Below are positions 2,024 to 27,844 of a DNA stretch of 34,475 bases, one piece after another. Within the stretch, counting starts at the first letter, position 1. Every line of letters starts with the position of its first letter. The stretch lies in contig SXID01000066.1 in the NCBI GenBank assembly GCA_005772955.1, forward strand, positions 1 to 34,475. The letters are read 5' to 3'. Below the pieces are notes generated by a model. The model did no database searches, was not told the origin of the DNA, and was given only the letters and a program-made list of their open reading frames with translations. The position numbers were made by a program, and so were the translations under genes. Source of the stretch: Planctomycetia bacterium (GTDB taxonomy: Bacteria; Planctomycetota; Planctomycetia; Gemmatales; Gemmataceae).

Positions 2024-2025
2024 GC

Positions 2026-2104: not shown

Positions 2105-2117
2105 GACGGGGAACAAC

Positions 2118-3038: not shown

Positions 3039-3050
3039 CCTGTGTGCCAA
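3019..3050. repeat. Palindrome overlapping the aldolase stop codon
   Basis: TGGCACAGGCT and AGCCTGTGTGCCA face each other around a short TTCT loop, with a 2-nt bulge in the right arm. The TAG stop of the aldolase lies inside the element and the MFS start lies just after it at 3057. This GTGGCACAGGCT-type sequence looks like a repeat family seen in planctomycetes (recollection, not checked). It may have been inserted at the gene end. Confidence 0.65.
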
Positions 3051-3056
3051 TCACCC

Positions 3057-12248: not shown

Positions 12249-13259
12249 ATGAAACTTCTCACTCTTAGCACCGCGCTTGTCTTGCTCGCGTCTCTGGTCG
12301 CCGCGCCCGCGGCCGAACCCAAGCCCGAGACGACGGACAACGTGCTCACCGACCTGAAGACCTTCTTCGCGAAGACCGCGAAGCCGGACGGTTCGTTTCG
12401 GCCCGGCATTGACCTCAAGTACGACGGCATTTCCGACAGCGCGTACAGCGACCTCGCACCGGTCACTTACGCGGTCATCATTCACAAGACGTTCGGCTGG
12501 AAACTCCCCGACGAAGAGAAGACGCGCGCGTTCCTGTTGTCGCGTCAGCAAGATGACGGGGCGTTCGTGAACGTCGCGGGCACGGTCGATCCGAAGTCGG
12601 CCGCGGGGCGCGCGTACAACACGACGATGGCGCTGATGGCCCTTCGCGCGCTCGGAACCAAACCCAAGCACGACCCGCTACCGGTGTTCGACGTGGTGCT
12701 GAAGGCCGATTACAAGGACTTACCGCTGTACATGACGAGCTTCTTCCCGCTCGCGTACCGCGCGTGCGACAAGCCAATTCCGAAGGACGCGGACAAGAAG
12801 ATCAAAGCGTTGATGGTGCAGACCGACGACGGCTACATCAACGACCACGTCGCGGCGACGTTCCACGCGGCGCACTATTACCGGCTCGTCGGCGAAGAGG
12901 TGCCCAAAGCGGACGCGATGTTGAAGCGTGTGCTGCGCGACCAGAAAGCGGACGGCAGTTGGATGCTGAACCCGCCGGCCCGCGACCGGCACGCGTCGTT
13001 CGACGCCGCGTTCATCATCCGGCAGCTCGGTGGCGACAAGCCCGAAGCGAAGAAGTCTTTGGAGAAGGTGGCGAAGTGGTCGTTGTCGTGCCGCAACGCG
13101 GACGGCGGGTTCGGGCACTACCCCGGCAGCACCTCCGACGCGGACGCGTGTTTCTTCCACGTCGGCACGCTGGTGATGGCCGGTTGGCTGAAGCCGGCGA
13201 ACCCGCTCCCGAAGGACGCGCACTTGTTAGGCTGGGGCCACCTGTTCCCGGTAAAATGA
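12249..13259 (+). CDS. Secreted prenyltransferase/squalene-oxidase-repeat protein
   Basis: A 336-aa protein with a clear signal peptide (LLTLSTALVLLASLVAAPAA, 3-22). The rest consists of helical-pair repeats typical of the terpene cyclase / protein prenyltransferase alpha-alpha barrel: KPDGSFRPG (45-53), QQDDGAF (100-106), QTDDGYI (191-197), KADGSWM (233-239) and CRNADGGFGHYPG (281-293). The stretch SDADACFFHV (296-305) sits where the zinc-binding D..H motif of farnesyl/geranylgeranyl transferase beta subunits would be. Export makes protein prenylation unlikely; the barrel may bind a hydrophobic or peptide ligand. Planctomycetes have many such proteins without known function. It starts a two-gene plus-strand group and is divergent from the WD40 cluster; no Shine-Dalgarno is visible. 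Confidence 0.8.
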   Translation: MKLLTLSTALVLLASLVAAPAAEPKPETTDNVLTDLKTFFAKTAKPDGSFRPGIDLKYDGISDSAYSDLAPVTYAVIIHKTFGWKLPDEEKTRAFLLSRQQDDGAFVNVAGTVDPKSAAGRAYNTTMALMALRALGTKPKHDPLPVFDVVLKADYKDLPLYMTSFFPLAYRACDKPIPKDADKKIKALMVQTDDGYINDHVAATFHAAHYYRLVGEEVPKADAMLKRVLRDQKADGSWMLNPPARDRHASFDAAFIIRQLGGDKPEAKKSLEKVAKWSLSCRNADGGFGHYPGSTSDADACFFHVGTLVMAGWLKPANPLPKDAHLLGWGHLFPVK

Positions 13260-13346
13260 CGGCGATCCACTCAGCGTCGCGCCGATATTTGTTCGACTCT
13301 GTGTCTGGTTCGAGCGGGTCGCGTGCAGCCGGTTGTGAGGTGAGCT

Positions 13347-14096
13347 ATGCAAGTCGCTTTCGTCTGTCCCGCGTGCCGGGACACCATCAACGCGCCCGCC
13401 TCCCTCGCGGGGGAGGAGGCGCCGTGCCCCAAGTGCGGGGCAGACGTGGACCGCTGGCCGTCACCGGTCAGTTCGCCCGGCGTCGTTCGCGTCGTGCCGC
13501 AACCCCCGCCCGCCGAGTCGGCGGTGTGGTTCTACATGGTGAACGGCGCGCGGCGCGGGCCGGTGACGGTCGCGCAGCTCAAAGCGCTGGTCGAATCCGG
13601 CGTGCTGCGCGCCAACGACCTGCTCTGGCGCGGCGGGATGCCGGCCTGGGTCGTGGCCGGCACGGTCCCCGAACTCTTCCCGGACGCTGGGGCGCTGGTT
13701 CCCGCCCTGCAACTGCCGCCCCCACCAGCGGACGGGCGCGACGGCCGGTCGCAGGTGCAGCCGATCCAGGTGAACGTCAACCAGGTAGTCGAGCGGGACG
13801 AGGACCGCCGTCCGCGGCGGCGGCCGCGCCGCGAGGGATTCTGCTGCCCGTACTGTAGCTCGCCGCACCCGATCAGCCGGGAGCACGTGGCCCCAGGCGG
13901 GTGGGTGCTGTTCTCCCTCCTCATCGCGTTCTCGGCCTTTCTTTGCCTCCTCGGACTGATCATCAGTTTGAGCGACGGCGGCTGGATCGTGTACGCCATC
14001 CTCCTGATATTTTCCACCATCTTTTCTTTCGCCAGCCTGCTCCTCAAAGAGGAGGTGGTCTATTGCCGGGAGTGCAAGTCGCGGGTCGGGCGCTGA
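13347..14096 (+). CDS. Zinc-ribbon, GYF_2-domain membrane protein
   Basis: A 249-aa protein of unknown role. Order: an N-terminal zinc ribbon with C7/C10 and C27/C30; a GYF_2 (DUF4339) domain at about 61-112 with WFYMVNGARRGPVT and LLWRGGMPAW; a proline- and arginine-rich linker (121-163); then CCPYC (166-170), two predicted membrane helices (about 185-207 and 213-233) and CREC (240-243). The CPYC and CREC pairs flank the helices and may form one zinc site closed across the helical hairpin. GYF_2 domains are thought to bind proline-rich peptides and are frequent in planctomycete membrane proteins. The AGGTGAG before ATG supports the start. It is convergent with the DUF1501 gene at 14134, with a 37-bp gap. 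Confidence 0.82.
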   Translation: MQVAFVCPACRDTINAPASLAGEEAPCPKCGADVDRWPSPVSSPGVVRVVPQPPPAESAVWFYMVNGARRGPVTVAQLKALVESGVLRANDLLWRGGMPAWVVAGTVPELFPDAGALVPALQLPPPPADGRDGRSQVQPIQVNVNQVVERDEDRRPRRRPRREGFCCPYCSSPHPISREHVAPGGWVLFSLLIAFSAFLCLLGLIISLSDGGWIVYAILLIFSTIFSFASLLLKEEVVYCRECKSRVGR

Positions 14097-14133
14097 ACCG
14101 GCCGATGGCACGCCGCGATCGTTGCGACCGCAC

Positions 14134-15495
14134 CTACCGGAACAACTCCCGTACCGGTTCGCCGGTTTCCACGAGCGCCGTCGGGCGGTTCTGCGTGTCG
14201 GGGAAATGCACCTTCCGCGCGTCGATGCCGAGGTGCTTGAACACGGTCGCGGTCACGTCCTGCGGCGACACCGGGCGGTCCGCGACGTACTCGCCGCGCG
14301 GATTGCTACGCCCGATCACCTGACCCATCTTCATAGAGCCGCAACCCATCAGCACGCTGAACACGTTGCCCCAGTGGTCGCGACCGCCTTCGGGGTTCAT
14401 TCGCGGCGTGCGCCCGAACTCGCCCATCGCCACCACCAGCGTCCGCTCGTACAGCCCGCGTTCGATGAGATCGCTTACCAGAGCCGCGAGAGCTCTGTCG
14501 AACGGCGGGATGAGCAGTTCCGCGCCCGGCTTCGTCGCGAGCCGGTTCGCGGTGCCGTGGTGGTCCCACGGGACGCAGTTCACCGTTACGAACGTCACGC
14601 CCGCTTCGACCAACCGCCGCGCTAACAGCGCGCTCTGCCCGAACGTGTGCCGACCGTAAGCGTCTCGCGTCTTCTTCGGTTCGGCGTTGATGTCGAACGC
14701 GGCTGCGGTCGCCTTACTGGTAAGCAGCGAGAACGCGCGCTCCGCGTGCGGATCGAGACTCACGCTGCGCGCGTCCACCGTGCGCTTGCTGGCGTCGAGC
14801 GATTCGAGCAGGTGCTTGCGGTCTTCGAGCCGCGAAATGGGCATGTCGGTGGGGAGCGACAGGTTCCGCACGCGGAAGTCGGGCAGGTTCGGGTCGGACT
14901 CCGTGACGAACGGGTTGTACCCGCGACCGAGGTACGCGGAGTAGTGGAAGAAGTTGTCCGTGCCGCCGCGCAGGTGCGGTACCGCGGCGTAAGGTGGCAA
15001 GCCGGGTTTGTTCGCGCCGATCAGCTTCGCGGTCGCGGACCCCATACACGGGCGGCGCTGCACGTTGAAGTCCGCGACGTTGAACGCCGGCCCTTCCATG
15101 CCGGTGAGCATCCAGTGGTTGCCCTTCGTGTGGTCGCCGGAGCCGTGGTTCACGCTCCGAAGAATCGCGAGCTTGTCAGCGATCTTCGCTTCCTCCGGGC
15201 ACAGTTCGCCGAACTGAACGCCGGGGATGGTGGTCTTCGTCGCCCCAAACGGCCCGCGAAACTGCGCGACCGCGTCCGGCTTCGGATCCCACGTTTCCAT
15301 GTGACCCGGCCCGCCGCTCATCCAGAACAGGATGACGCTCGCGCCTTCGACGTGCGGGATCGCGTGTTCGTCGCTGGCCTTCGCGCGAAGGAAATCACCG
15401 AGCGCGAGTCCGCCGCCGAGCACGCCGGCTTGCAGGAACGTGCGCCGCGTGACGCCGGTGCAATCCGACCCGCGTCCGCCTGTAACTCGGAACAT
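14134..15495 (-). CDS. DUF1501 protein, Tat-exported (paralogue C)
   Basis: A 453-aa DUF1501 protein. Its Tat signal is TRRTFLQAGVLGGG (16-29), preceded by a cysteine (C12). The motif is GGPGHMETWDPKPD (61-74), so it keeps the histidine of A and B but has E in place of D two positions later. Toward the C-terminus it has GEFGRTPR and GGRDHWG. I chose the ATG at 15495 because the MFR start matches the other family members; the frame is open to 15561. It lies 62 bp after the pseudouridine synthase gene in the same direction, so it may be the tail of the long minus-strand run or have its own promoter. No Shine-Dalgarno is seen. Confidence 0.87.
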   Translation of the reverse strand: MFRVTGGRGSDCTGVTRRTFLQAGVLGGGLALGDFLRAKASDEHAIPHVEGASVILFWMSGGPGHMETWDPKPDAVAQFRGPFGATKTTIPGVQFGELCPEEAKIADKLAILRSVNHGSGDHTKGNHWMLTGMEGPAFNVADFNVQRRPCMGSATAKLIGANKPGLPPYAAVPHLRGGTDNFFHYSAYLGRGYNPFVTESDPNLPDFRVRNLSLPTDMPISRLEDRKHLLESLDASKRTVDARSVSLDPHAERAFSLLTSKATAAAFDINAEPKKTRDAYGRHTFGQSALLARRLVEAGVTFVTVNCVPWDHHGTANRLATKPGAELLIPPFDRALAALVSDLIERGLYERTLVVAMGEFGRTPRMNPEGGRDHWGNVFSVLMGCGSMKMGQVIGRSNPRGEYVADRPVSPQDVTATVFKHLGIDARKVHFPDTQNRPTALVETGEPVRELFR

Positions 15496-15557
15496 GAGCA
15501 ATACCCGTTCGAGAGAAGAGAACGTTCGCTTAACTCTACCCTGGAAATCTGCCCGTG

Positions 15558-16418
15558 TCACGCGATCATCACGATGCGAGACAACAGCTCCGGGAGCGGC
15601 GATTCCAGTTCCCGCCGATCCCCATTAAAGGGATGGTCGAAGGCAAGACGCCACGCGTGCAAGCACAACCGGCGCACCGGGTCGGTGGTCGCACCGTACA
15701 TCTTGTCGCCCGCGACCGGGCACCCCAGGCCCGCCAGGTGAACGCGGATCTGGTGCTTGCGCCCGGTCTCCAGTCCCACCTCCACGAGCGAATACTTGCC
15801 GCGCGTTTCGCGAACCGTGTACCGCGACACGGCTCGCTTCGCGTCCTTGCCGGGGTGTTTGCTCGCGCGCACGCGAAGGTCGCGCCCTTCGGTCAGGTAG
15901 TTCTCGACCAACCCCGCGGCCGATTCAGGCGCGCCCTCCACCACCGCGAGGTAGGTCTTGGTCACCGATTCCCAGTTCGCTTGAAGCTGATCGCGAACGT
16001 CGGTACTTCGCGCGAAGAGGAGCAAGCCGGACGTGTCGCGGTCGAGCCGGTGAACGACGAACGGGCGCCCGGCGTTCCGCGCCGCGAGGTGCGCGCTCAT
16101 CCGCACGAACGCGGTGTCGGTCTTCTCCGATTCGGTAGCGACGGTGAGGAGGCCCGAAGGCTTGTCGATCACGACGAGGTACGCGTCTTCGTGGACGATC
16201 ACGATGCCGGACACGTCCGCGGCGACCGGTGCCTCACGCGAAACGCTCACTGTGTCGCCGGGGCGCAGCGCGTGATCGTGCCGCGTGACGGAAGTGCCGT
16301 TCACGTGAACGCGCCCGGAGCGGAGCACCTGCTTCACTCGCGTGCGGTTCATTGGTGCGAGTGCTGTGAGCAAGAAGTCGAGGAGCTGTGATTCGGCGGT
16401 GGGCGTCAGGTCGCGCAT
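15558..16418 (-). CDS. RluA-family pseudouridine synthase
   Basis: A 286-aa cytosolic enzyme that converts uridine to pseudouridine in rRNA or tRNA. Residues about 10-60 form an S4 RNA-binding domain (LRSGRVHVNG and LRPGDTV). The catalytic motif HRLDRDTSGLLLFA starts at H123 with catalytic D126. GRKHQIRVHLAGLGCPVAGD, typical of RluA-type enzymes, lies toward the C-terminus. Whether it is an RluA, RluC or RluD type cannot be decided. The ATG at 16418 starts inside the aldo/keto reductase gene, a 13-nt overlap, so the two are likely translated together. The frame is open upstream to 16901, but that part is a shadow of the reductase. An RNA-modifying enzyme behind a metabolic cluster probably just shares its transcript. 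Confidence 0.92.
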   Translation of the reverse strand: MRDLTPTAESQLLDFLLTALAPMNRTRVKQVLRSGRVHVNGTSVTRHDHALRPGDTVSVSREAPVAADVSGIVIVHEDAYLVVIDKPSGLLTVATESEKTDTAFVRMSAHLAARNAGRPFVVHRLDRDTSGLLLFARSTDVRDQLQANWESVTKTYLAVVEGAPESAAGLVENYLTEGRDLRVRASKHPGKDAKRAVSRYTVRETRGKYSLVEVGLETGRKHQIRVHLAGLGCPVAGDKMYGATTDPVRRLCLHAWRLAFDHPFNGDRRELESPLPELLSRIVMIA

Positions 16419-17317
16419 CGCGAAACCTCCGCGACGTGTGCCGGCGAACCGAACCCAATGATCGCGGACGACACCGCCGCGTGACCCAGCACGAAGCGCA
16501 GCGCGAGTTCCGTCGGCGTGAATCGCCCAACGGCGTTCTCGCGGAGGTGCTTCGCGCGTTCCGAATCGCGTTCGTAGAGCGCGAGCGGGAAGTACGGCGT
16601 CTTCAGCGTGTGCGCGCTCGGCGGTTGATCGAGCAGCGCCCCGCCCGCGAACACGCGAATCGCGAACACGCCCATGTTCATCTGGGCGCAGTCCGCGATG
16701 ATGTTCCCGTAATCGGTTTCGCCGGGTGCACAGGTCGCACTGCCCGCGCTCGGGTTCAAGATGTTGAACGGCACCTGCATCGTGTCGAACACACCCGAGC
16801 GCACCACTTCGCGCATCGCTTCCGGGTGCCCAGTCCCGGTCAGTCCGATGTGCCGTACCAAGCCCGCGTCGCGCACCTTCGCCATTGCTTCCGCGATGCA
16901 AAGGACGTCTCGCGGCGCGATCGCAGCCGGCTCGTCGTCGCGGTGGCGTGTTATTCCGTTATGAAGCTGAAGCAGTGTGGCGTGTGATACGCGCAGCCGT
17001 TTCAAGCTCTCTTCGACTGAGCGCCGCACGTAGTCCTCGGGGTTATCGAGCACCTCCGCGGACACGCGAACTTTGGTGGCGATGTGGAAACGGTCGGACA
17101 CTCCGAGTTCCGCGAGCGCGCGACCAAGGTTCGCTTCCGACTGCCCCTGCCCGTAGCCGGGCGCAGTGTCGAACCAGTTGACACCGGCACCGATCGCACG
17201 CTCAACCGTGGCCAGTTGCGCCGCATGGTCGTTGCCGGTCATGAGGCCCGATACCGGGCCCGCGCCGAACGCGACCGCCGACACCGTCAACCCCGTGCGC
17301 CCCAGCGTGCGGCACAT
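16406..17317 (-). CDS. Aldo/keto reductase
   Basis: A 303-aa NAD(P)H-dependent oxidoreductase with a TIM-barrel fold that reduces aldehydes or ketones or oxidises sugar alcohols and lactols. The catalytic tetrad is visible at the usual spacing: D50 and Y55 (FDTAPGYG), K82 (IATKVR) and H119 (LLQLHN). The start MCRTLGRTGLTVSAVAFGAG is typical of AKR families acting on sugars, such as the L-fucose or galactose dehydrogenase-like group. I chose the ATG at 17317, which overlaps the upstream dehydrogenase stop by one base (TGATG); a GTG one codon earlier is possible. It overlaps the pseudouridine synthase gene by 13 nt. Within the cluster it probably acts on the sugar or sugar acid imported by the MFS protein. 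The substrate is not readable from sequence. Confidence 0.88.
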   Translation of the reverse strand: MCRTLGRTGLTVSAVAFGAGPVSGLMTGNDHAAQLATVERAIGAGVNWFDTAPGYGQGQSEANLGRALAELGVSDRFHIATKVRVSAEVLDNPEDYVRRSVEESLKRLRVSHATLLQLHNGITRHRDDEPAAIAPRDVLCIAEAMAKVRDAGLVRHIGLTGTGHPEAMREVVRSGVFDTMQVPFNILNPSAGSATCAPGETDYGNIIADCAQMNMGVFAIRVFAGGALLDQPPSAHTLKTPYFPLALYERDSERAKHLRENAVGRFTPTELALRFVLGHAAVSSAIIGFGSPAHVAEVSRCAT

Positions 17318-18180
17318 CACGGTTGCTCTCCCTCGAACGCGAGAATCACCGCGCTGTTATCACACTCACCGAAGCCACGCTCCACGAGTTCCGTGAGTAC
17401 CTCTTCGTGCATCGTGCTGAACGGTAGTGCCGCCCCGACCTCGCCACCCGTTTCGAGGATCAACCGCACGTCCTTGAGGTGCTGCGACAGCTTTGCGTGC
17501 GGCTCGAAATAGCCCGATATCATCCGCTGTCCTTTCGTGTCCATCGCGCGCGAGTACGCGGCACCCGTGCGGAGAATGTTGAATGTCTGCTCCATTTCGA
17601 GACCGCAGCGCCGCGCTAACGCGAGTCCTTCCGCGAGCGCCACGCGGTTCAAACCGAGAACGAGGTTAATGATGAGTTTGATCCGCGCCCCGCTCCCCCA
17701 CGGGCCAACGTGAAAACACCTCTCACCGAACAGCCGCAAGACCGGGTCGATTCGCTCGAACACCTTCGCCTTCCCGCCCGCGGTGACAACCAGGGTGCCG
17801 TTGCGTGCGTCCGGTCCGGTGCCACTAAGCGTGGCGTCGAGGTAGTCGCAATCGACCGCGGCAAGCGCCTTCCCAGTAGCCGCGGTCGCGTTCGGTTCGC
17901 CCGTGGTGGTGTCGATGATCGTGGCCCCGCGAACCGAATCACCGGCCTCCGCGACCACCGCGGCGACAACATTACTATCCGGCAAGCTGAAGACGACGGT
18001 CTTTACCGAACCGAACACCTCACACACGGATTGCACCGGCTCGCCGCCGATCTCCGCGAGCCTCGCACGGCACTCCTCCCGCGGGTCGTAACCGACAACG
18101 CGAAGCCCGTGCGGTGCGCGGAGGCGTTGTGCCAGCGCGCCACCCATCAACCCCAAACCGATCATGCCGATCGCGTCCAT
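17317..18180 (-). CDS. 3-hydroxyisobutyrate-dehydrogenase-family oxidoreductase
   Basis: A 287-aa beta-hydroxyacid dehydrogenase. The N-terminal Rossmann fold has GLGLMG (8-13). The substrate-binding segment DATLSGTGPDARNGTLV (115-131) corresponds to the family DAPVSGG motif, with two small-residue changes. The catalytic lysine is probably K168 in GSGARIKLIINL. Known members oxidise 3-hydroxyisobutyrate, tartronate semialdehyde, 6-phosphogluconate-like acids or sulfolactaldehyde. Next to an MFS transporter and an aldo/keto reductase, a role in sugar-acid breakdown is plausible. I chose the ATG at 18180, one base after the MFS stop codon; the frame runs to 18219, but that would overlap the MFS gene. 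The downstream gene starts within the stop (TGATG). Confidence 0.88.
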   Translation of the reverse strand: MDAIGMIGLGLMGGALAQRLRAPHGLRVVGYDPREECRARLAEIGGEPVQSVCEVFGSVKTVVFSLPDSNVVAAVVAEAGDSVRGATIIDTTTGEPNATAATGKALAAVDCDYLDATLSGTGPDARNGTLVVTAGGKAKVFERIDPVLRLFGERCFHVGPWGSGARIKLIINLVLGLNRVALAEGLALARRCGLEMEQTFNILRTGAAYSRAMDTKGQRMISGYFEPHAKLSQHLKDVRLILETGGEVGAALPFSTMHEEVLTELVERGFGECDNSAVILAFEGEQP

Positions 18181-18181
18181 T

Positions 18182-19483
18182 TCAGTCCTCCAATTTGCCG
18201 CCGGTCGCTCGCGGGACAAACCAGATTATCAGCATCCCGACACCGTAAATCATGCCGCTCCACAGCCCGACTTGCGAGTAGTTGCCGGAAAACTGATCGA
18301 GCAGGAACCCGGCCGAGAGTACCACAATCGCCGCGACCACACGACCCGTGTTGAACGAGATGCCGGTCCCAGTGGAGCGTACACGTGTGGGAAACAACTC
18401 CGGCAGGAACAGCGGCAACCACCCGAAGTACGTGATACCGACGAACCCCAACACGAACGTGAATATCTGGAACTGCGGGTGCAGCGGGTCGAGTTGCGAG
18501 AAAATGTACGTACTGACCGCGAGCGTGCCGAGGCTGATGAAGAAGTAGCTCAAGCGCCGGCCGAGAACGCTCGCGACGACCCCGCCGAGCAAGCTGCCGA
18601 ACACCGCGCCGCCGGACCGCGTCATCTGCGTCTTCGCCTTGCTCCGCGCGTCCGGCTTCTTCACCTCACCGCCACTCGCGAGCGCCTTCTGTTGTTGCGC
18701 GTGGTCAGTCCACGGAACGACCCAGTTCGCGTTCGCGGCGGAGCCGACAACCGGAATCGCGCCGAGCATCACGCCGAGAACTGTGCGCGACAGCAGCGGC
18801 GGTGTCAGCACCGCGCGCAGCGGCGACGCACTCGCCTGCGCCTCGTTCGCCTGTGCGCGGCTCGCCAACCAGCGCGGCGATTCCGGCACGCACAGTAGAA
18901 TCAGCACGCCGATTATGCACGGCGACGCGGCGACGAGAAACGCCCACCGCCACGACTCCTGTTCGATGGGGAACGCGTAGCCGATCGCGCCGAGCAGCAC
19001 GAAGCCGACGTTCGCGGCGGCACCGAGCAGCCCCGCCAAGAACGGGCGCGACGCGTTCGGCCACGCCTCCGCGACGAGCGCCACCGCGTTCGGCCACACA
19101 CCGCCCACGCCCAGACACGCGACGAACCGCACCACAAGCATGGTGCCCACGTCATTCACGAAGTAACACGCGAGCGTTCCCAGCGAGTAGCACAGCACGC
19201 CCGCGCCGAGCGAGCGCGTGCGCCCGATGCGGTCGCCAAGAAAACCGAACAACCACCCACCGACCGCGGCCCCGAACAGGAACGCGGCCTGGAACCACGT
19301 GAACCAGCGCGTCACGTCCTTCTCCGGCGTGGATGTGCCGAGTAGTTCGAGCGTCATCTGCCGGTGGATGAGAACGAACAGCGAGATTTCCATCCCCGCG
19401 AACATCCACGCGAGGAACGCGGCGCCGAGCACGCCGTACCGCTGCGTACGTGTGAGTGATTGAACCTGAGAAGTGTCGCTCAC
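18182..19483 (-). CDS. MFS transporter, sugar/aromatic-acid-like
   Basis: A 433-aa multi-pass inner-membrane transporter. It has the motif GDRIGRTRSL (83-92) between helices 2 and 3, and LPELFPTRVRSTGTG in the second half, a pattern of the sugar-transporter Pfam family and of aromatic-acid:H+ symporters. The loop with SGGEVKKPDARSKAKTQMTR is a basic cytosolic segment between the two six-helix halves. The start is GTG at 19483, overlapping the TGA of the beta-helix gene (GTGA). It probably imports a product released by the exported beta-helix and DUF1501 proteins and passes it to the two dehydrogenases downstream. It differs from the other MFS protein at 3057 and is not a recent copy. The substrate is unknown. 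Confidence 0.85.
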   Translation of the reverse strand: MSDTSQVQSLTRTQRYGVLGAAFLAWMFAGMEISLFVLIHRQMTLELLGTSTPEKDVTRWFTWFQAAFLFGAAVGGWLFGFLGDRIGRTRSLGAGVLCYSLGTLACYFVNDVGTMLVVRFVACLGVGGVWPNAVALVAEAWPNASRPFLAGLLGAAANVGFVLLGAIGYAFPIEQESWRWAFLVAASPCIIGVLILLCVPESPRWLASRAQANEAQASASPLRAVLTPPLLSRTVLGVMLGAIPVVGSAANANWVVPWTDHAQQQKALASGGEVKKPDARSKAKTQMTRSGGAVFGSLLGGVVASVLGRRLSYFFISLGTLAVSTYIFSQLDPLHPQFQIFTFVLGFVGITYFGWLPLFLPELFPTRVRSTGTGISFNTGRVVAAIVVLSAGFLLDQFSGNYSQVGLWSGMIYGVGMLIIWFVPRATGGKLED

Positions 19484-21450
19484 CAGTCGCGCCCCAATCT
19501 GTTGTTCGGGCCGACCTGGAGCCGTTCGGGGCCAAACGGGAGCGCGCCGATATCGGGCTTGCCCTTGTCCTCTTTGCGCAGCGGGTCCGGCCAGTCGGCG
19601 GGCAGTTCAATTCCCGCGTCGAGGAGCGGGCTGCCCTTCTCGAGGCAGAACTCCTTGTCGAACTTGGGGTCGGCCACGCGGCAGTTCGTCGTCGAACCGG
19701 GCGCGTGAAGTTTCTGACTCGCGACGAACGCCGGCGACTTGCGGAACTTGTCGAAGAACGTCGCGCCGACCTTCTCCGGCACGCCAGGCGCCCAATACAG
19801 GTTGCCGTCGGCGACACAGTCCGCGACTGGGTCCGGGAGCGCGAATGCGGGCAACTTGTCGCCGTGCAGGAACACGTTGTTGAAGACGCGTCGCGTTTGA
19901 GGCACCCGTGACGCGGCGAACGTCGCCATCGCGGTGTCGCGCGAGCCGCCCGCGGTCACGAACGTGTTGTGGTAGATGTTCATCGCGGACCACGGCGGCG
20001 AACCGTGATCGCCGATCACCTTGCCGGTCGCAAGCCCCGGCTCCGCGCGTCTCGTGGTCGGGCGCCCGGTTTGAAGCGTGCCGCGAAGGTCGAACACGTT
20101 GCGGTACACAAACACCTTATCCGGTGCGAGCGGTTCCGTGCCGCCGAACGCGAGGGCTGTAAGCATCGCTCCAAATCTGTTCTGGTAGATGTGAATCTGC
20201 GCGTCCTTCTTGTCGAGTTTGTGCCGCGCGTACATCGGGCTGAGGTAGATGCCGTCGTCCTGAAGCCCTTCCATCAGGTTGTGATGGAACTTCACGTTGA
20301 TGCCACCAAGATAAATGCCGTCGTGCGAGTCCGTGAACTCGCAATACTCGATCTCCCAGTTGTCGTTTTGCGGCGTGGCGTACACCGACGACTCGCGCCC
20401 GGAGTCGAGTTCGAGGAGCGCGTGCGTGTTGAGGCGCGAGATGTTCCGGTGCGGCCGGCCGGGGTAGTCGCGCTTGCTGCCGTCGGTGCGGAACGTCCAC
20501 GGCGCAACGTTCCCGTAGAACCGGCACCCGGCCAACTTCAGCGGCCCGGCGCAGCCGGCGCGAATGCCGTACGCGCCGCACCACACCGTCACGTTGTCGA
20601 ATTCAACGTGCTGCGCGTGATCGAGCATCACCGCGGTGTAGCCCGATCCGCGAACAACAACGTCACTGATGCGAACGTGCTTCGCGCCGTCAAGGTGAAG
20701 CGGAACAGAGTTGAACCGCGAGAGGACGAGTGGCAGCTTTCGCGGATCGGTTTCGCCCGCGTAGTTCGGAATCGGCTTGGGAAGGTTGGTGTGAGCGAGC
20801 CGCGCGTAGATGTATCCGGTCTCGCGGTCGTACCACAGGCCCGGCCCGCAGTACAGCGGTTTGATGTCGCTCTCGGCTTGCTTGTCCCAGTTCTCCCAGT
20901 CGATGAGTTCGTTGGTCGCGCGCAGGTCTTGCGCGTGGTGGTACGTCTGAAGTCCGATCATGGAATCGCCGAAGGAGCCGAGCACGTCGCGAAGGTTCGG
21001 GTAGGTGCGCTTCGAGCGGTACTCGCCCGGTGCGCCCTTCGGCACCGGTTCCCACGCCTCGCCCGGCGTGTCGAGGAACTCGCGCATCCCGCCGTCGATG
21101 ATCGCTTGTTCGCCGGGCACGGAGCGAATGGAGATCGGCGCACCCGGTTTTCCCGTGCGCGCGACGTAGACGTTCTCGTAGTAGGTGCCGCCGTGCAGGT
21201 AGAGCGTGTCGCCAGCCTTGAGTTGCTTCACGCCATGCGCGATCGTCTTCCACGCGTTCGCTTTCGTGCCGTCCTTCGCGTCGTCACCCTTCGTGGGGTG
21301 AACGAAGAGCGCGCGCCCGAACAGACCGGGAAGAACTCCGACCGCGGGGTGCGGCTTCGGGTTCTGGCGCAGCGGCGGGTGCGATTGCACATCGGCCGCG
21401 AAAGCAGTGGGCGCGGTGAGGAGCAAGGCGAGCGCGGAGAGACGGAACAC
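19480..21450 (-). CDS. Secreted right-handed parallel beta-helix protein
   Basis: A 656-aa protein starting at GTG 21450, chosen because the next residues form a signal peptide (FRLSALALLLTAPTAFA) and GGAG lies a few bases upstream. After it comes a DUF1565-like entry, ALFVHPTKGDDAKDGT and AGDTLYLHGGTYYENVYV (about 47-95). A long series of helix coils follows, with YCEFTDSHDGIYLGG, LMEGLQDDGIYLSP and IYHNTFV as repeated turns. It ends near DIGALPFG, a common ending of such proteins. The fold is shared by pectate and alginate lyases and by binding proteins; no catalytic triad can be assigned. The gene sits 10 bp after a DUF1501 gene and overlaps the MFS start. A polysaccharide-binding or lyase role is plausible but unproven. 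Confidence 0.85.
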   Translation of the reverse strand: MFRLSALALLLTAPTAFAADVQSHPPLRQNPKPHPAVGVLPGLFGRALFVHPTKGDDAKDGTKANAWKTIAHGVKQLKAGDTLYLHGGTYYENVYVARTGKPGAPISIRSVPGEQAIIDGGMREFLDTPGEAWEPVPKGAPGEYRSKRTYPNLRDVLGSFGDSMIGLQTYHHAQDLRATNELIDWENWDKQAESDIKPLYCGPGLWYDRETGYIYARLAHTNLPKPIPNYAGETDPRKLPLVLSRFNSVPLHLDGAKHVRISDVVVRGSGYTAVMLDHAQHVEFDNVTVWCGAYGIRAGCAGPLKLAGCRFYGNVAPWTFRTDGSKRDYPGRPHRNISRLNTHALLELDSGRESSVYATPQNDNWEIEYCEFTDSHDGIYLGGINVKFHHNLMEGLQDDGIYLSPMYARHKLDKKDAQIHIYQNRFGAMLTALAFGGTEPLAPDKVFVYRNVFDLRGTLQTGRPTTRRAEPGLATGKVIGDHGSPPWSAMNIYHNTFVTAGGSRDTAMATFAASRVPQTRRVFNNVFLHGDKLPAFALPDPVADCVADGNLYWAPGVPEKVGATFFDKFRKSPAFVASQKLHAPGSTTNCRVADPKFDKEFCLEKGSPLLDAGIELPADWPDPLRKEDKGKPDIGALPFGPERLQVGPNNRLGRDW

Positions 21451-21460
21451 GGTTGGCTCC

Positions 21461-22948
21461 TTATGCGAAAACCTCTTGCCGCACCTTGCCGTCGCCCGCG
21501 ATGTGCGCGGGTTTGCCCTGCGCGTCGGGCACAGTGGTGTGAACGTCGATGCCGAGCAGGTGGAACGCGGTCGCGAGAATGTCCTTCGGTGACACCGGGA
21601 TGTCACGGACTTCGCCGCCGTGCTTGTCGGTGCTGCCGACGACCTTGCCGCGCGCGATCCCGCCGCCGGCCATCGCCACCGAGTACGCCCGCGACCAGTG
21701 GTGCCGCCCGGCGCCCTTTGGTTTAGGGTCGATCTTCGGCGTGCGCCCGTGTTCGCTCATCCAGATCACGAGCGTTTCGTCCAGGAGGCCGCGCGCTTCG
21801 AGATCGAGCAGCAGCGCCGGGTACGCGGTGTCGAAGCCCGGAAGCAGGTACTCTTTCAGCCGCGGGTAGTGGTTCGCGTGCGTGTCCCAGGCGCAACCGG
21901 AGAACTGACCGAAGCCGTCCCAGAACACCGTGACGAACTTCGAGCCGGCTTCCACCAGCCGCCGCGCGCACAAGCACGACTGACCGAAAAGCGTGGCGCC
22001 ATAGCGCTCGCGCACGCTCAGCGGTTCGCGACTCACATCGAGCGCGTTTCGCATCTTGTTCGTGGTGAGCAGAGAGAACGCCATGTCACGGAACTTGTCG
22101 TGTCCGTCGGTTGTGGCGCGAGCGCGAGCAGCGTCGAACTGCGCGAGCAGCGAGCGCCGATCATTCAGGCGCGCGGCCGGCACTTCGGGCGGAAGCTCGC
22201 CGGTCGAAGACAGCCTAAACTGCCCATCGAGGCCGCATGCCGCGAACGGGTCCATGAATTCCTTCGACTGCCCGTCGGTGTACTTCGGGGCGATCTTCTT
22301 CCCGGCGCCTTCATAGGACGCCCACACCGGGTCGAACCCCTGACCGAGAAACGCCGCGTACGGCCCGGCACTCACGTTCTGGTCGGTGCGCGAGTTGAGC
22401 AACCACGGCAGCCCAACGTTTCGCGGCACCGCCGGGGTAGGATCACCACTGAGTTTGGTTTCGAGGTAATCGACGATGGAGCCGATGAACGGCCAGTGAC
22501 GCGAATCGCGCGGCGCGGCTTCAAGTGCAGGCGTGTAAGTCGGAATCCCACTGACCGCGTAAGCGACACCGTGTTCGGGGTACGGGTGCGTGACCGACCG
22601 CACCACGGTCACGCGATCCAAGATCTTCGCGATGCGCGGGAGTAATTCGCACACGCGTACGCCGGGCAGCACGCTTGGAATGGACTTCAGTTCGCCCTGA
22701 ACTTCGGCGGGAGCGTCCGGCTTCGGGTCGAACGTCTCGTGCTGCGGCGGCGAGCCGTAGGGGAACAGCAGGATGCACGCCTTCGCGCGACCGAAAGACG
22801 AATCCTTCGCGGGCGTCGGTTCGCTCGCGCGGAGCTTCAAAAATGAAGGGAGCGTCAGCCCGAACGCGCCTAACCCGCCAACGTGCAGCAGGTCGCGCCG
22901 CGTCAGGCCGTCGGATAGCGTCTTCGGTGAACCGAGAATGCGAAACAC
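21461..22948 (-). CDS. DUF1501 protein, Tat-exported (paralogue D)
   Basis: A 495-aa DUF1501 protein starting at GTG 22948; the start is set by MFRILGSPK, which matches paralogue E, and by AGAGGAAC upstream. Its Tat signal is TRRDLLHVGGLGAFG (16-30). The active-site-like motif is divergent: YGSPPQHETFDPKPD (64-78) has Q where A, B and C have H, with H moved one place, and the C-terminal motif reads GAGRHHW in place of GRDHW. SEHGRTPKID also replaces GEMGRTPR. If these residues bind metal in the family, D has altered ligands. It lies 43 bp after paralogue E and 10 bp before the beta-helix gene, so its partner set differs from that of A and B. Confidence 0.88.
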   Translation of the reverse strand: MFRILGSPKTLSDGLTRRDLLHVGGLGAFGLTLPSFLKLRASEPTPAKDSSFGRAKACILLFPYGSPPQHETFDPKPDAPAEVQGELKSIPSVLPGVRVCELLPRIAKILDRVTVVRSVTHPYPEHGVAYAVSGIPTYTPALEAAPRDSRHWPFIGSIVDYLETKLSGDPTPAVPRNVGLPWLLNSRTDQNVSAGPYAAFLGQGFDPVWASYEGAGKKIAPKYTDGQSKEFMDPFAACGLDGQFRLSSTGELPPEVPAARLNDRRSLLAQFDAARARATTDGHDKFRDMAFSLLTTNKMRNALDVSREPLSVRERYGATLFGQSCLCARRLVEAGSKFVTVFWDGFGQFSGCAWDTHANHYPRLKEYLLPGFDTAYPALLLDLEARGLLDETLVIWMSEHGRTPKIDPKPKGAGRHHWSRAYSVAMAGGGIARGKVVGSTDKHGGEVRDIPVSPKDILATAFHLLGIDVHTTVPDAQGKPAHIAGDGKVRQEVFA

Positions 22949-22991
22949 AACTGTTCCTCTCGCTCCCTGTTGGGTCGCGGCTAATCTGGTG

Positions 22992-24431
22992 TTACGCCAA
23001 CACCGCGCGGACCGGCGTGCCGTCGGCATAGAGCATGTGCGGGCGGTTGAGCCGGTCGCGGATCGCGACATCGGACCCGATGCCGCACAGGTGGTACACG
23101 GTCGCGAGCACGTCCTGCGGTGACACCGGACTGTCAGTCACGTAGGCGCCAATCTTGTCGCTCTTCCCATACACGACGCCACGTTGAACGCCCGCACCCG
23201 CGAACATCGCGCAATACGAACCGACCCAGTGGTCGCGCCCGGATCGGGCGTTCACTTTCGGCGTGCGGCCCATCTCGCTCATCACCACCACCAGCGTTTC
23301 ATCGAGCAGCCCGCGGTCTTCGAGATCGTCGAGCAGGGACGCGAGCGCGCGGTCGAGGCCCGGCAGCAGCCACCCTTCGCACGCCTTGAAGTGATCCCAG
23401 TGCGTGTCCCATCCCAGCGTCGCGATGTCCGGGCCTTCCTTCGTGCAGTCCCAAATCGCGGTGACGAGCGGAACCCCGGCTTCGACCAGTCGGCGCGACA
23501 TTAGCACGCTCTGACCGAACAGGTTCCAGCCGTACGCGTCGCGCAACTTCGTCGGCTCCGAGGAGATATCGAGTGCGCGTCGGAACTTCTCTGAGGTGAT
23601 GACGCCGAGGGCGCGCTTGCGGGAATCGTCGAACCCGTCGATCGCGGCCGACGACATCAGCCGACCGCGGGTCGCGTCGAGTTGGTCCACCAAACTCGAT
23701 CGCGATTTGAGCTGGTCGAGCGTGATATCGAGATCGAGATCCGCGCCGGGTGGAGCGAACTTCAGCTTCTCCGCCTTCACGCCGTTTGGGTTGAAAAGCA
23801 GTTCGCCATTGTTGCCGACGCGGGTACAAACCGGGTCGAACTTCGCGCCGAGGATGCCGCCATACGGCCCGGTGCGTGTGTAGCCTTCGAGCAGCCCGAG
23901 GCGGTTCGGGACACACACGTGATTCGGTATCGCGCCGTTGGCCCTGAGATCGCCGCCGCGCTCGCGCACGTGATGCACGGCCGACATGAAGAACGGCCAG
24001 TCCGACGGGATGCCAGGGTTGATACCCTTGATCGCGGTGCCGCCCAGCGTCGCGTGCTTCCCTGTCAGGACGAAACTGGTGTTGTGGTTCGAGTCCTCGC
24101 TGTGAACCGACCGAATCACCGACACTTTGTTCAGGCGCCGCGCCATCAGCGGCAGGTGTTCGCACACCGGGAAGCCGGGCAGCGCCGACGCGATCGGCTT
24201 GTACGGCCCGCGAATGTCAACCGGCCCGTCCGGCTTCATGTCGAACGTTTCGAGTTGACTCCACCCGCCGAACAGGAATAGACAGATGACCGACTTGGCT
24301 TTCGGCTTGGCTGCGGTCGCGAGCGCCGGCGCGCTGAGGCCACCGAGCAGCCCGAAGCCGCCCGCGACGAGCAAGTCGCGCCGACTGACACCGGCACAGG
24401 AGCGTTTCGGATTACCGAGGATGCGGAACAT
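22992..24431 (-). CDS. DUF1501 protein, Tat-exported (paralogue E)
   Basis: A 479-aa DUF1501 protein starting at ATG 24431 with MFRILGNPKR, then C12 and the Tat motif SRRDLLVAGGFGLLGG (16-31). The motif at 55-68 is GGWSQLETFDMKPD: the histidine of paralogues A-C is Q and the acidic residue is E. The C-terminal motif is SEMGRTPKVN and SGRDHW. The middle carries family-specific insertions (about 170-260) such as GEDDD-poor but asparagine-rich NGELLFNPNG. It opens a close-packed group with D and the beta-helix gene. D and E share the MFRILG start but differ in the metal-site motifs. A small hairpin lies 28-43 bp upstream of the start. Confidence 0.87.
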   Translation of the reverse strand: MFRILGNPKRSCAGVSRRDLLVAGGFGLLGGLSAPALATAAKPKAKSVICLFLFGGWSQLETFDMKPDGPVDIRGPYKPIASALPGFPVCEHLPLMARRLNKVSVIRSVHSEDSNHNTSFVLTGKHATLGGTAIKGINPGIPSDWPFFMSAVHHVRERGGDLRANGAIPNHVCVPNRLGLLEGYTRTGPYGGILGAKFDPVCTRVGNNGELLFNPNGVKAEKLKFAPPGADLDLDITLDQLKSRSSLVDQLDATRGRLMSSAAIDGFDDSRKRALGVITSEKFRRALDISSEPTKLRDAYGWNLFGQSVLMSRRLVEAGVPLVTAIWDCTKEGPDIATLGWDTHWDHFKACEGWLLPGLDRALASLLDDLEDRGLLDETLVVVMSEMGRTPKVNARSGRDHWVGSYCAMFAGAGVQRGVVYGKSDKIGAYVTDSPVSPQDVLATVYHLCGIGSDVAIRDRLNRPHMLYADGTPVRAVLA

Positions 24432-24458
24432 GCTTGTCTTTGGTAGGTGCCGCACGCC

Positions 24459-24474
24459 ACGCGGCTTGCCGCGT
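24459..24474. promoter_or_regulatory. Short hairpin upstream of DUF1501 paralogue E
   Basis: ACGCGGC (24459-24465) and GCCGCGT (24468-24474) pair perfectly around TT. The hairpin lies in the 122-bp gap between the phospholipase-like gene stop (24554) and the DUF1501 start (24431). It may be a terminator or attenuator for the upstream gene or a 5' untranslated structure. No T-tract follows on the minus strand. Confidence 0.35.
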
Positions 24475-24553
24475 AGCATCTTCGTAGGTTTCGCAGCGGC
24501 AGGATCACGTAAGGGTACCCGCTCGCAGGTGCCGAAGTCCAGCGCCACAGTCG

Positions 24554-25918
24554 CTACTTCTTCGCAAACGCGACCGCAACGTGCCGCACCGCCTTCGCCG
24601 GTTCGCCGTCAGTGTGCAGCAGAACCTCCAGATACAGATACCCCTTCTCGAATGGCTTCATCAGGACGTCGGGCGCGACCTCCACCGGAAATTTTGCGAC
24701 GTCGAGTGCCGTCTCGCGACCGCCGACGGTCGAAGACGGATTGCTCCGCCAACGAACCGACACCGGCACTTTCTTCTCGCCCACGAACTCGACTCGCACG
24801 ACACACGCCTGACCCACCGGCACGCGAACTGGGGCACTCACCCACCGCCCGCCCTTTACGGTGTCGCGTGACCAGCCGTCGGGCTGATCGGCGAGTATCC
24901 ATTTGTGCGCGAACCGTGGGTTGCGCACGAGGTTACCCGCGTCCGGTTTCAGCTTCGGTTCCACGGTCGCGGTCTTACCCGCTTCGAATATCACATCCTG
25001 CACGCGTTCCACTTCGTACCCGGTTGCGAGCACCGACACCGCGTAGCGCCCCGGCGGTACGTCGCGAAAATGATACCGCCCTTCCCCATCGGTCGTCGTT
25101 GAGAAGTCGGTGCCCTCGATGATGATCTTTGCGGGGACAGTCGCGTAACCTGCGGGCGGTTCGTAGTTGAGCTTGCCTTCGAGCGCCGCGCCGGGTTTGG
25201 GTGGCTCCTTCAGCCCGAGCGCGAACAGGGTGTGAACGACGTCCGCGGTGACCCGCGCGACCTCCAGCGCGCATTCTAATTCCAGCGGTTGGTTCTCGCG
25301 TTTCTCCAACTTCTCTACCAACAACTTCAGTTGCTCCGCGCGCAGTCTTGAGAAGTCGTGCAGTTCGGCCATGCGCTCTTCAAAGCCGCGCAGCGCCTCC
25401 GCGTCGGTCTTGCCGAGCAACCTCGGTTTGTAGCCACCAATCGCGATCTTCGACTCGTCTACCCAGCGTTCCATCTTGCCGTGCAGTTCGCCACCGATGC
25501 CGGTCGTGTGAGGCGGCGAACCGGCGTCCTGAACGAAATGCAGCAGGCTCCCGACCCAGCGCGCCGCGTTTCGTGGCGACTCGGTGCGGATCGCCTGCAG
25601 TGCGCGTTTGAAGAATGGCGCGTACGTCTTTCGCACTTGAGGGTGCATATGGGAGACGTGTAGCGGGCTTTGCGGGAACAGCAGGTAGTCGTCCGCGTAG
25701 TGGTCCGGTCGCACGGCTTCCTGCCAGTCGCCCATCCAGCAGTAATCGCGCGAAAGGCGCGAGAAATCGTCGCCCAAGTACTTCTGGAGTTTCTCCTTCT
25801 CCGGTTGCACGGCGAGGCCAGCCGCGGTGATCTCGGTATGAGGCCCCCACGCGCGCGCGATCCCGCACAACCCCGCAACGAGGCACACCACAAGAACCAC
25901 ACGAATGCGACTGGGCAT
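24554..25918 (-). CDS. Zinc phospholipase C/P1-nuclease-like secreted protein
   Basis: A 454-aa exported protein. The signal peptide (1-23) ends ARA before W24. In the phospholipase C / P1 nuclease fold the mature N-terminal tryptophan binds zinc through its amino group, which would fit here. Further candidate ligands: H27 (WGPHTEI), D64 (WMGDW), H90 or H92 (HVSHMH), H127, D131 and H137 (LLHFVQDAGSPPH), and H146 and E150 (ELHGKME). The H-x3-D-x5-H spacing equals that of the known enzymes. C-terminal to about residue 290 is a carboxypeptidase-regulatory-like beta-sandwich (TTDGEGRYHFRDVPPGRYAV), then a further beta-rich region. The ATG at 25918 has GAGGAG upstream. It could cleave phospholipids or nucleic acids. 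It lies upstream of the DUF1501 group but is probably a separate unit. Confidence 0.78.
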   Translation of the reverse strand: MPSRIRVVLVVCLVAGLCGIARAWGPHTEITAAGLAVQPEKEKLQKYLGDDFSRLSRDYCWMGDWQEAVRPDHYADDYLLFPQSPLHVSHMHPQVRKTYAPFFKRALQAIRTESPRNAARWVGSLLHFVQDAGSPPHTTGIGGELHGKMERWVDESKIAIGGYKPRLLGKTDAEALRGFEERMAELHDFSRLRAEQLKLLVEKLEKRENQPLELECALEVARVTADVVHTLFALGLKEPPKPGAALEGKLNYEPPAGYATVPAKIIIEGTDFSTTTDGEGRYHFRDVPPGRYAVSVLATGYEVERVQDVIFEAGKTATVEPKLKPDAGNLVRNPRFAHKWILADQPDGWSRDTVKGGRWVSAPVRVPVGQACVVRVEFVGEKKVPVSVRWRSNPSSTVGGRETALDVAKFPVEVAPDVLMKPFEKGYLYLEVLLHTDGEPAKAVRHVAVAFAKK

Positions 25919-26011
25919 GCGAACTCCTCGCGAACCGCCAATCATTATGCCACTCCCGGCCGAAACCGGGTAACCTGTTCGCAGCGAACCCCCGAACACG
26001 CGGAGCAACTC

Positions 26012-27844
26012 ATGCGAGCCATCTTCTTCGCCGCGGCGGTACTGGCACTGCTGGCCGGTGGCACACTTCCGGCCGCGGACCCGACCCCACCGAAGCGAGC
26101 CGAGTTCACGCGAATGATCGCGCACTGGGCGGAATACGCGGACGACGATTACCTCACGTTTGTCGAAGAGGCGAAGCCGGAGGTGTGCCAGATCGGGTTC
26201 TACGGCGGGCACTTCTACAGCCTCGCGCACACGCCGCAATACAAGGGCTACCCCGCGCACTTCCCGGTGCAAGGCCTGGATAAGTGCGGGAAGTGGTTCG
26301 AGGACCGCAACGCGGCCATTCACAAGCGCGGCGCGAACGTGGTCGGACACTTCAACGTGTCGTTCCTCGTGGGAGAACCCGAAGGTAAGAATGGGCCGCA
26401 AGGCTTCTTCAAGTTCTATCGCGAGTTGTGGGACGAGAAAGAACTCGGCCCGAAACCGGTCAAAGACCCACTCGATCTGATCGCCAAGAACGCCGACGGC
26501 ACCCCGATGGCATCAAAACAATACAGCATCGGCCAGATGCGCGAGTACACCGCGTGTCTCAGCAATCCGCACTGGCGCACCGTGCTGAAGGCGTGGGCGA
26601 AACGCGGCATCGAGCGCGGTGTGGACGGTTACGTCGCGAACTACTTCTACAGGCACAACTGCCTCTGCGATCACTGCCAGACCGGGTTCCGCGCTTACCT
26701 CGGCGGTCGCTTCACTGCGGCGGAGATGAAAGAGAAGTTCGCCATCGCCGACCTCAAGTCGCACAAGTTTGAAGAAATCGTGGGCTGGCACAACCCGAAG
26801 GAATCGACGCCGTTCCGCCGCGAACAACTCCGGTTCTCGCAGCTCACCTGTAAAGAGGCGTTCGACGAAGTGTTCGTGAAGTACGCGAAGTCCCTCAAGC
26901 CGGGGTTGATGGTGGCGCAGTGGAACCACCTGGGCGACTTCAGCCAAATCAGCGGTGACGAGCGCTGCATGTTGTCTGCGGACAAGTGGGGCGCGAACGA
27001 AGACTACCTCTGGTACAGCACCGGCGGCTCGGCGTGCTTCACCGATTTGAAGGAAGGGTTCCTCGGCGAAGGAACACTACAAGCGCGGTACATTCGCGGC
27101 GCGTTCGACGACAAGCCGTTCACGCTGGGCAAGTACGAATCGACGCGTATCCGCGTCGCGATCTCGGAACTTGCCGCCAACGGCGGCGCACCGATGGGCT
27201 TCTACACGCGATTCAAAGACCCGGAAGCGCGCAAGGAGATCACGCGATACTACAGCTTCATGGCGAAGTACGACGACCTCTATCGCGCGAACGTTCCGCA
27301 CGCGGAGGTGTTGCTCCTCTTCCCGCGAACGGATGTTCACAAGGGGAACGTGGACGCGGTGGATGCGTTCAAGAAACTCGGCAAGGAACTGCTCGACAAG
27401 CACGTGCTGTTCGACGTGCTGCCGGACGAACAAATCCCCGAGGGAAAGCAGGCCGGATACAAGGCGGTGTTCAACCCCGCGAAGCCGGACGCGCCGCCTG
27501 CGGGCCTGAGCGCGTTTGCCGCGCCGCGGACGGTTCGCGTGTCCGCGAGCAAGCCCGCGAAGGGTAACGAGATCACGTTGCACTTCGTGAACTACAACCG
27601 AACCGAACCGGAGAAACCGAAGAGTCCCGGCGGCGGCATCAAGGACGAGAAGCCCACTGCGGTCGAAGGCGTGAAAGCCGACTTCGTGCTGCCCAAGGAT
27701 GCGAAGGTGAAGAAGGTGATGGTGGCGACACCAGAAGAGCCAGACGGCGCCGAAGTGAAGTTCGAGGTGAAGGACGGGCGGCTCAAGTTCGAGGTGCCCA
27801 AGTTCCTGGTGTACGCCATCGCGCGCGTGGTGTTGGAGAAGTAG
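26012..27844 (+). CDS. Secreted glycoside-hydrolase-like protein
   Basis: A 610-aa exported protein. The signal peptide is [21 protein letters not shown] (2-22). The main part (about 30-420) looks like a TIM-barrel glycosidase of the uncharacterised GH42-like group: [36 protein letters not shown] with a CxxC pair, and [10 protein letters not shown] following segment ([15 protein letters not shown] to [11 protein letters not shown]) resembles the Rossmann-like trimerisation domain of beta-galactosidases, and the last 110 residues form a beta-sandwich with long charged loops. No catalytic acid pair can be assigned with confidence. The ATG at 26012 has GGAG six bases upstream. It is divergent from the phospholipase-like gene and precedes asnS with a palindrome between. 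A sugar-cleaving or sugar-binding role is inferred. Confidence 0.6.

Follow-up and report, generated by a model that had tools for sequence, protein, structure and literature searches.

A putative sugar or sugar-acid scavenging operon around a conserved importer and two oxidoreductases in a member of the Gemmataceae

We analysed a 34,475-nt stretch of DNA (hereafter the window), which is one contig of the 5.9-Mb draft genome (G000, 278 contigs) of a Planctomycetia bacterium of the family Gemmataceae. Eight open reading frames (ORFs) lie between positions 24431 and 14134, all on the reverse strand, and the original prediction had read them as one run for the attack of an extracellular polymer, the import of a monomer and its oxidation or reduction. 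Comparison with relatives indicates that the heart of this run is a conserved module of a major facilitator superfamily (MFS) importer, a beta-hydroxyacid dehydrogenase (HIB) and an aldo/keto reductase (AKR), and not an eight-gene unit. We see an even chance that a putative scavenging operon is organised around these three genes, which would take up and oxidise a sugar or sugar acid. In the order of transcription, the eight genes are as follows.

22992 to 24431, reverse strand: gene E, a DUF1501 protein (Pfam, 244 bits) with an RR motif, SRRDLLVAG, at its N-terminus that looks Tat-like by eye.
21461 to 22948, reverse strand: gene D, a DUF1501 protein (Pfam, 256.6 bits) that models with an alkaline phosphatase/sulfatase superfamily fold.
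19480 to 21450, reverse strand: gene BH, a right-handed beta-helix protein of 656 amino acids (Pfam Beta_helix) whose start resembles a signal peptide by eye.
18182 to 19483, reverse strand: gene MFS, the importer (Pfam Sugar_tr, 114 bits; MFS_1, 110 bits).
17317 to 18180, reverse strand: gene HIB, a HIBADH-like beta-hydroxyacid dehydrogenase (NAD_binding_2 and NAD_binding_11).
16406 to 17320, reverse strand: gene AKR, an aldo/keto reductase (Pfam Aldo_ket_red) with the tetrad kept.
15558 to 16418, reverse strand: gene RluA, an RluA-family pseudouridine synthase (PseudoU_synth_2; TIGR00005, 204.5 bits against a cut-off of 192.7).
14134 to 15501, reverse strand: gene C, a loosely placed DUF1501 protein (Pfam, 303.8 bits) with an uncertain start, for which a GTG at 15561 is possible.

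Every Pfam family assigned to the eight genes scored above its cut-off, DUF1501 in three of them, and the order, strand and spacing of the genes matched the first reading of the sequence. Gaps of 43 nt (E/D), 10 nt (D/BH) and 1 nt (MFS/HIB) were found, together with overlaps of 4 nt (BH/MFS) and 13 nt (AKR/RluA). HIB and AKR overlap by 1 nt with an ATG start or by 4 nt with a GTG start, and C either follows RluA after 56 nt (start at 15501) or overlaps it by 4 nt (GTG at 15561). The coordinates thus agree with the run of gaps noted originally (43, 10, −4, 1 and −1) and with the 13-nt overlap. Within positions 13000 to 26500, two promoter-like sites (1.0 expected) and 11 terminator-like sites (11.8 expected) were counted; these numbers are at the chance level, so that the scan did not place the transcript ends.

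Conservation of the run was examined in 95 genomes of the family, searched with BH, HIB, AKR and MFS at thresholds of E ≤ 1e-45 for HIB, 1e-50 for AKR and 1e-60 for BH. HIB was carried by 21 genomes, 19 of which had MFS as its neighbour, in two cases (G055 and G056) with a DJ-1 gene in between. AKR was found in ten genomes, and in eight it stood beside MFS and HIB: the genome of the window, G024, G016, G013 (split over two contigs), G014, G089, G059 and G058. A wider scan of named genomes, from which the best 80 of at least 522 HIB relatives were kept, gave 31 loci with MFS adjacent to HIB on the same strand and 11 with all three genes together. Three of those 11 are the G024, G089 and G059 loci, and L073 holds only a partial MFS. 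For many relatives the genome is a draft in short contigs; genes of the relatives were called by codon-score scripts, except at four lower-GC loci taken as plain ORFs. With start codons chosen by hand, MFS and HIB were spaced by 1 to 2 nt in the window, G024, G016, G013 and G014, a regularity beyond chance, and HIB and AKR overlapped by 4 nt in the window, G014 and G089. On these counts the importer and the two oxidoreductases stand as a conserved module.

The expectation that all eight genes would be syntenic in relatives failed. C was not found past RluA in G013, the syntenic G024 stretch yielded no E, and BH is not adjacent in G014. Neither BH, D, E nor RluA lies beside the cassette in G014, G089, G059 and G058, and we rejected one conserved eight-gene unit. 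RluA was found next to the cassette in four genomes (those of the window, G024, G016 and G013) and in no others, so that the RNA-modifying gene is not supported as a fixed member. The run in G016 reads E-D-BNR-BH-MFS-HIB/AKR-RluA; the genes beyond E differ from those of the window, and the contig ends at RluA, before the place where C would lie. In G013, the genes past RluA also differ from the window, and in G024 C follows RluA. The block observed in this clade thus extends from E to RluA; G024 lacks E, and the presence of C varies. RluA and C are probably bystanders. Just upstream of E, at 24554 to 25945, the window encodes an exported-looking protein with a carboxypeptidase-regulatory-like domain, which was not found in the syntenic G024 stretch.

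The cassettes of G014, G089, G059 and G058 have no BH match, as would be expected if MFS-HIB-AKR were an independent operon for uptake and oxidation of a small organic acid or semialdehyde, beside which BH, the DUF1501 genes and RluA were placed by rearrangement in one clade, sharing at most a transcript. Pointing the same way, the wider scan added eight three-gene loci, some on short contigs, in which no member of the BH cluster was seen; MFS also resembles acid:H+ symporters, and the best models of HIB, although well short of their cut-offs, are tartronate semialdehyde reductase and L-threonate dehydrogenase. However, every one of the four genomes with the BH/MFS pair keeps its 4-nt overlap, which is more than chance, and two other genera (G059 and G034) have both BH and AKR, on separate contigs. 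In addition, the flanks change in G016 (on the E side) and G013 (on the RluA side) while the inner order holds. We consider an independent operon possible but doubtful. BH was present at 59% identity or more in six of the 95 genomes, all of them among the nine with AKR at 59% or more; this co-occurrence is inflated by shared ancestry.

We then considered the two enzymes. HIB scored 103.6 and 90.9 bits with its two Pfam families (cut-offs 21 and 30), and its K168 and N172 were invariant in all 15 aligned sequences; the catalytic Lys of the HIBADH family lies in a KxxxN region. Its motifs DTTTG and (S/T)GS differ from the DxSxxxP and SGG that are typical of family members, and it carries GYDP, whose Asp is presumably of the NAD type. 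The best NCBIfam models were tartronate semialdehyde reductase (TIGR01505; 164 bits against 340.75) and L-threonate dehydrogenase (140.5 against 350). With these enzymes HIB shares NAD_binding_2 and NAD_binding_11, but it scores below the equivalog cut-offs and is fused with AKR in relatives; an assignment as tartronate semialdehyde reductase equivalog was rejected on the score. AKR reached 128.5 bits (cut-off 24), and its D51, Y56, K83 and H120, invariant in ten of ten sequences, correspond to the Asp-Tyr-Lys-His catalytic tetrad of aldo/keto reductases. The nearest solved structures were L-galactose dehydrogenases (profile E 1.1e-27), which likewise keep the tetrad; GSP69 followed closely at 8.8e-23, and the lead over other AKRs is narrow.

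In two genomes of the same genus, G024 and G016, HIB and AKR form one ORF of about 600 amino acids, and the pieces on two contigs of G013 agree with this. The fusion and the repeated adjacency argue for linked, consecutive steps catalysed by HIB and AKR. No HIBADH-AKR fusion was described in the open-licence literature searched. One further reading of the pair is that both enzymes act on one hydroxyl in opposite directions, so that an imported sugar acid would be epimerised without net redox change. The joining of both in one ORF, the lack, for the most part, of other catabolic genes beside the three, and a match named DON (deoxynivalenol) 3-epimerase among the AKR matches agree with it; on the other hand, a common substrate is hypothetical, and the Asp of GYDP does not fix the direction. 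We hold epimerisation to be very improbable.

Structural models were used to examine BH. The model (predicted local distance difference test score, pLDDT, 81.8) had as VIA matches BT_1002 (Z 25.6, root-mean-square deviation 3.4, 396 aligned), alginate lyase 6kfn (24.0), pectate lyase Pel9A (22.5), XylC (22.4), rhamnogalacturonan lyase (22.4), LnbX (21.4) and PL6 lyases (about 18 to 20). In Foldseek, XylC ranked first (E 1.3e-12, TM 0.44), followed by BT_1002; the TM-scores were low, at about 0.4. GH136 is the label in the title of the 6kqs record, and we take LnbX to be GH136. BH thus models as a right-handed beta-helix like those of GH141, GH120 and GH136, a glycan-active fold that is common to lyases as well. 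It shares the helix over nearly its full model with BT_1002 (GH141), XylC (GH120) and LnbX, but identity to them is 15 to 19%, and alginate lyase, Pel9A and rhamnogalacturonan lyase score alike. D374, D377, D398 and D399 were invariant in 21 sequences and are candidates for the catalytic acid pair of such glycosidases; the residues given for BT_1002 in PMC10154630 and PMC12786026 are D523 and D564. According to the same two papers, the members of GH141 include a fucosidase, a xylanase and endo-fucanases; with activities so diverse, the fold gives no substrate.

The best VIA match of BH, BT_1002, is the GH141 fucosidase in the part of PMC10154630 available, and L-galactose dehydrogenases are the solved structures nearest to AKR. 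Both would fit an L-fucose/L-galactose route, with BH as an alpha-L-fucosidase-like enzyme, AKR as an L-fucose/L-galactose 1-dehydrogenase and HIB in a later oxidation. An FAA_hydrolase gene 3 nt upstream of HIB-AKR-MFS in L112 and an Amidohydro_2 gene in the Opitutae locus L103 are also consistent with such a route. Against it, alginate lyase and Pel9A come directly after BT_1002 among the matches, GH141 also includes the other activities given above, and the AKR lead for L-galactose dehydrogenase is small. Moreover, there was no fucose permease model among the MFS matches listed (25 of 34), and fucose breakdown in bacteria of the Planctomycetes-Verrucomicrobia-Chlamydiae (PVC) group is described with microcompartments in the available part of PMC8857213. 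No paper joining fucose and Planctomycetes turned up in the open-licence literature searched. We regard the fucose route as unlikely.

In the scavenging operon that we prefer, BH, presumably exported and acting as a GH141/GH120/GH136-like glycosidase, would release a glycan residue outside the cytoplasm. MFS would import the sugar or sugar acid by H+ symport, and AKR and HIB would then run two consecutive redox steps. The product may feed central metabolism or the galactonate-dehydratase/dihydrodipicolinate synthase (DHDPS)-type cluster at 845 to 3038 of the same window. Within their own clade, D and E may remove ester groups from this glycan, and would be accessory at most. The predicted scheme of release, import and oxidation is thus reasonable for BH, MFS, HIB and AKR, on the conserved module and the glycan-active fold model, and is not supported for DUF1501 and RluA as fixed members. 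Polysaccharide-utilisation-like loci of PVC bacteria, as given in the accessible parts of PMC5615132 and PMC8857213, likewise place glycan-active exported proteins close to genes for importers and sulfatase-like proteins. The run differs from them in that none of its eight genes encodes a SusCD-type or shell protein according to Pfam.

Several observations weigh against the scavenging operon. Shared ancestry inflates every conservation count, and the trio appears patchy outside the family: in an evenly drawn sample of 392 genomes of the phylum (AKR E ≤ 1e-75, five to six candidates scored per genome), AKR was found in the genome of the window and four others, and only one of these four (G181) had HIB beside it. 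Within the family, G060 and G066 carry HIB without an MFS neighbour, and G019 and G034 carry AKR with no HIB or cassette-type MFS beside it at the thresholds used. BH adjoins MFS in only four of the 19 BH-positive genomes, all of the same genus. Its fold matches are a mixture of hydrolases and lyases, and its profile matches, to chains of lacto-N-biosidase type, XylC and BT_1002 (7v6m, 3vst, 6kqs and 5mqp), cover mainly the N-terminal 130 positions. There is no dehydratase, aldolase, lactonase or kinase inside the run. Finally, the best NCBIfam models of MFS, for aromatic-acid and sialate:H+ symport, both scored below cut-off; this resemblance to acid symporters would fit a sugar acid better than a neutral sugar.

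The DUF1501 genes were scrutinized separately. C, D and E, at 244 to 304 bits, lie far above the DUF1501 (PF07394) cut-off of 27. The model of D (pLDDT 72.6, with weak stretches) matched PafA (Z 20.0), ENPP6 (19.8) and a Pedobacter sulfatase (18.2) in VIA, and steroid sulfatase in Foldseek (E 1.3e-6); D accordingly models with an alkaline phosphatase/sulfatase superfamily fold. Formylglycine sulfatases carry a C/S-x-P/A-x-R motif near the N-terminus. This motif is absent from D and C, and E has a single CVPNR at residue 173, in the middle of the protein; we therefore rejected D, C and E as formylglycine sulfatases, none having the N-terminal motif. D has the fold in common with the alkaline phosphatase/ENPP/sulfatase superfamily, but lacks the sulfatase motif.

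At least 127 DUF1501 genes were counted in the 5.9-Mb genome, and the 34-kb window has five. The true number exceeds 127, since scoring covered 127 of the 177 candidates and the resulting list lacks two of the window's own copies. One window query of the relatives search, the DUF1501 gene at 5798, began at an incorrect start and contained an X at the site of a stop. D occurs with BH in four genomes of the same genus, with an extra gene between them in G013 and G016, and E is kept beside D in G016. The extra gene is a BNR_2 (sialidase-like) gene (L036:6321-7292 in G016; L035:1612-2583, its counterpart in G013), which is missing from the window and G024. C is found in G019 with PSCyt/WD40 genes about 1.5 kb from AKR. 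Among the 80 best wider loci, DUF1501 lay within 5 kb of HIB in eight, three of them on the same strand. Among 18 HIB loci (L052 to L068 and L071), a same-strand DUF1501 gene within 5 kb was seen in two, L063 and L071; in L061, it lies 5.4 kb away, in a same-strand run just past the limit. DUF1501 genes are thus found in or near the HIB runs of G076, G066 and G060 (L061, L063 and L071). A same-strand DUF1501 gene within 5 kb was present in five of the 18 other BH loci retrieved, several of which are on short contigs; three of these five are the orthologues from the same genus, and one further locus had it on the opposite strand.

Nevertheless, no DUF1501 gene lies within 5 kb of the trio in G014, G089, G059 and G058 (L052 to L055), and DUF1501 is not supported as a fixed pathway member. 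DUF1501 was rejected as a core part, since it is not retained with the cassette beyond its own clade and is so numerous in the genome. The D-BH pairs, C near AKR in G019, and L061, L063 and L071 speak weakly against this rejection. With so many copies, synteny cannot name a DUF1501 substrate, and the suggestion that the locus points to a polysaccharide was not sustained. A function of DUF1501 was not found in the open-licence literature looked at: the main text of PMC5615132 contains no DUF1501, and in the available part of PMC4982196 it is a hit name only.

The metabolic surroundings of the cassette were inspected in the window and its relatives. A second catabolic cluster lies at 845 to 5698 on the forward strand of the window, with a galactonate-dehydratase-like gene, a DHDPS-family gene, a galactonate-type MFS gene and a further gene, which we take to be ceramidase-like. 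G014 (L052) has the galactonate-dehydratase cluster 2.4 kb away from the three genes and in the same orientation, separated from them by two genes of the opposite strand. DHDPS (E ≤ 1e-70) was present in 40 of the 95 family genomes and in seven of the eight three-gene genomes. The galactonate-dehydratase/DHDPS cluster was rejected as a fixed partner, since only three genomes (that of the window, the syntenic G024 and G014) have it on one contig with the cassette. Other MFS-HIB loci lie near sulfatase, TonB receptor, Amidohydro_2, GFO/IDH, DUF6807 or DHDPS genes. The Opitutae locus L103 combines a GntR/periplasmic-binding-type regulator, a TonB receptor, a cytochrome protein, Amidohydro_2, GFO/IDH and DUF6807, and similar clusters recur; the Bryobacteraceae locus L080 has DHDPS and a TRAP transporter nearby, beyond an opposite-strand gene. 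The neighbour families of L103, L080 and L112 are typical of carbohydrate or sugar-acid breakdown. The three-gene loci L074, L083, L085, L087, L105 and L122 had no common pathway partner among the scanned neighbours. DUF6807 recurs near MFS-HIB in several loci, and at L063:2478-6395 a DUF7133/cytochrome protein fused to DUF6807 is encoded directly upstream of the HIBADH-like gene.

Alignment with the sister genome G024 delimited a region of lower identity within the cassette.

17000 to 18160, reverse strand: divergent tract, comprising HIB and the 5' part of AKR.

Identity between the window and G024 in this tract is 0.67 to 0.77, against about 0.8 to 0.98 in most flanking 100-nt blocks. HIB is 66% identical, whereas BH and MFS are 89 to 92% identical; HIB of G024 is 75% identical to that of the more distant G016. 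Nonsynonymous divergence (dN) between the window and G024 is 0.24 for HIB and 0.05 to 0.09 for D, BH, MFS and RluA, and synonymous divergence (dS) is 0.85 against 0.38 to 0.47, with AKR in between. The tract is probably the result of replacement by a divergent allele through recombination, which would also explain the split form of HIB and AKR; faster evolution is the alternative. Against recombination alone, the dS of HIB is also high between G024 and G016 (0.93, against 0.55 to 0.78 for other genes), which makes some of the excess a property of the gene. At the AKR/RluA junction (16400 to 16460), the window differs from G024 by 58 nt of gaps, an AKR about 13 amino acids shorter, and the 13-nt overlap. 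We rejected this overlap as a conserved coupling, as it is absent from three relatives, where gaps of 9 nt (G024 and G013) and about 77 nt (G016) are found instead.

A broader proposal has a slim chance in our estimate. The locus might represent a sugar-acid pathway of Planctomycetota, Verrucomicrobiota and Acidobacteriota that has not been described before, with a channelled HIBADH/AKR pair, one polypeptide in some Gemmataceae, as key enzyme, and with DUF1501 esterases that would strip charged groups ahead of a GH141-like cut. The scavenging operon offers a testable cassette in which a fused enzyme, an importer and an exported-looking protein resembling glycosidases can be expressed and assayed. 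The predicted fold of D would direct tests of DUF1501 proteins to phosphate or sulfate esters rather than to glycosidic bonds.

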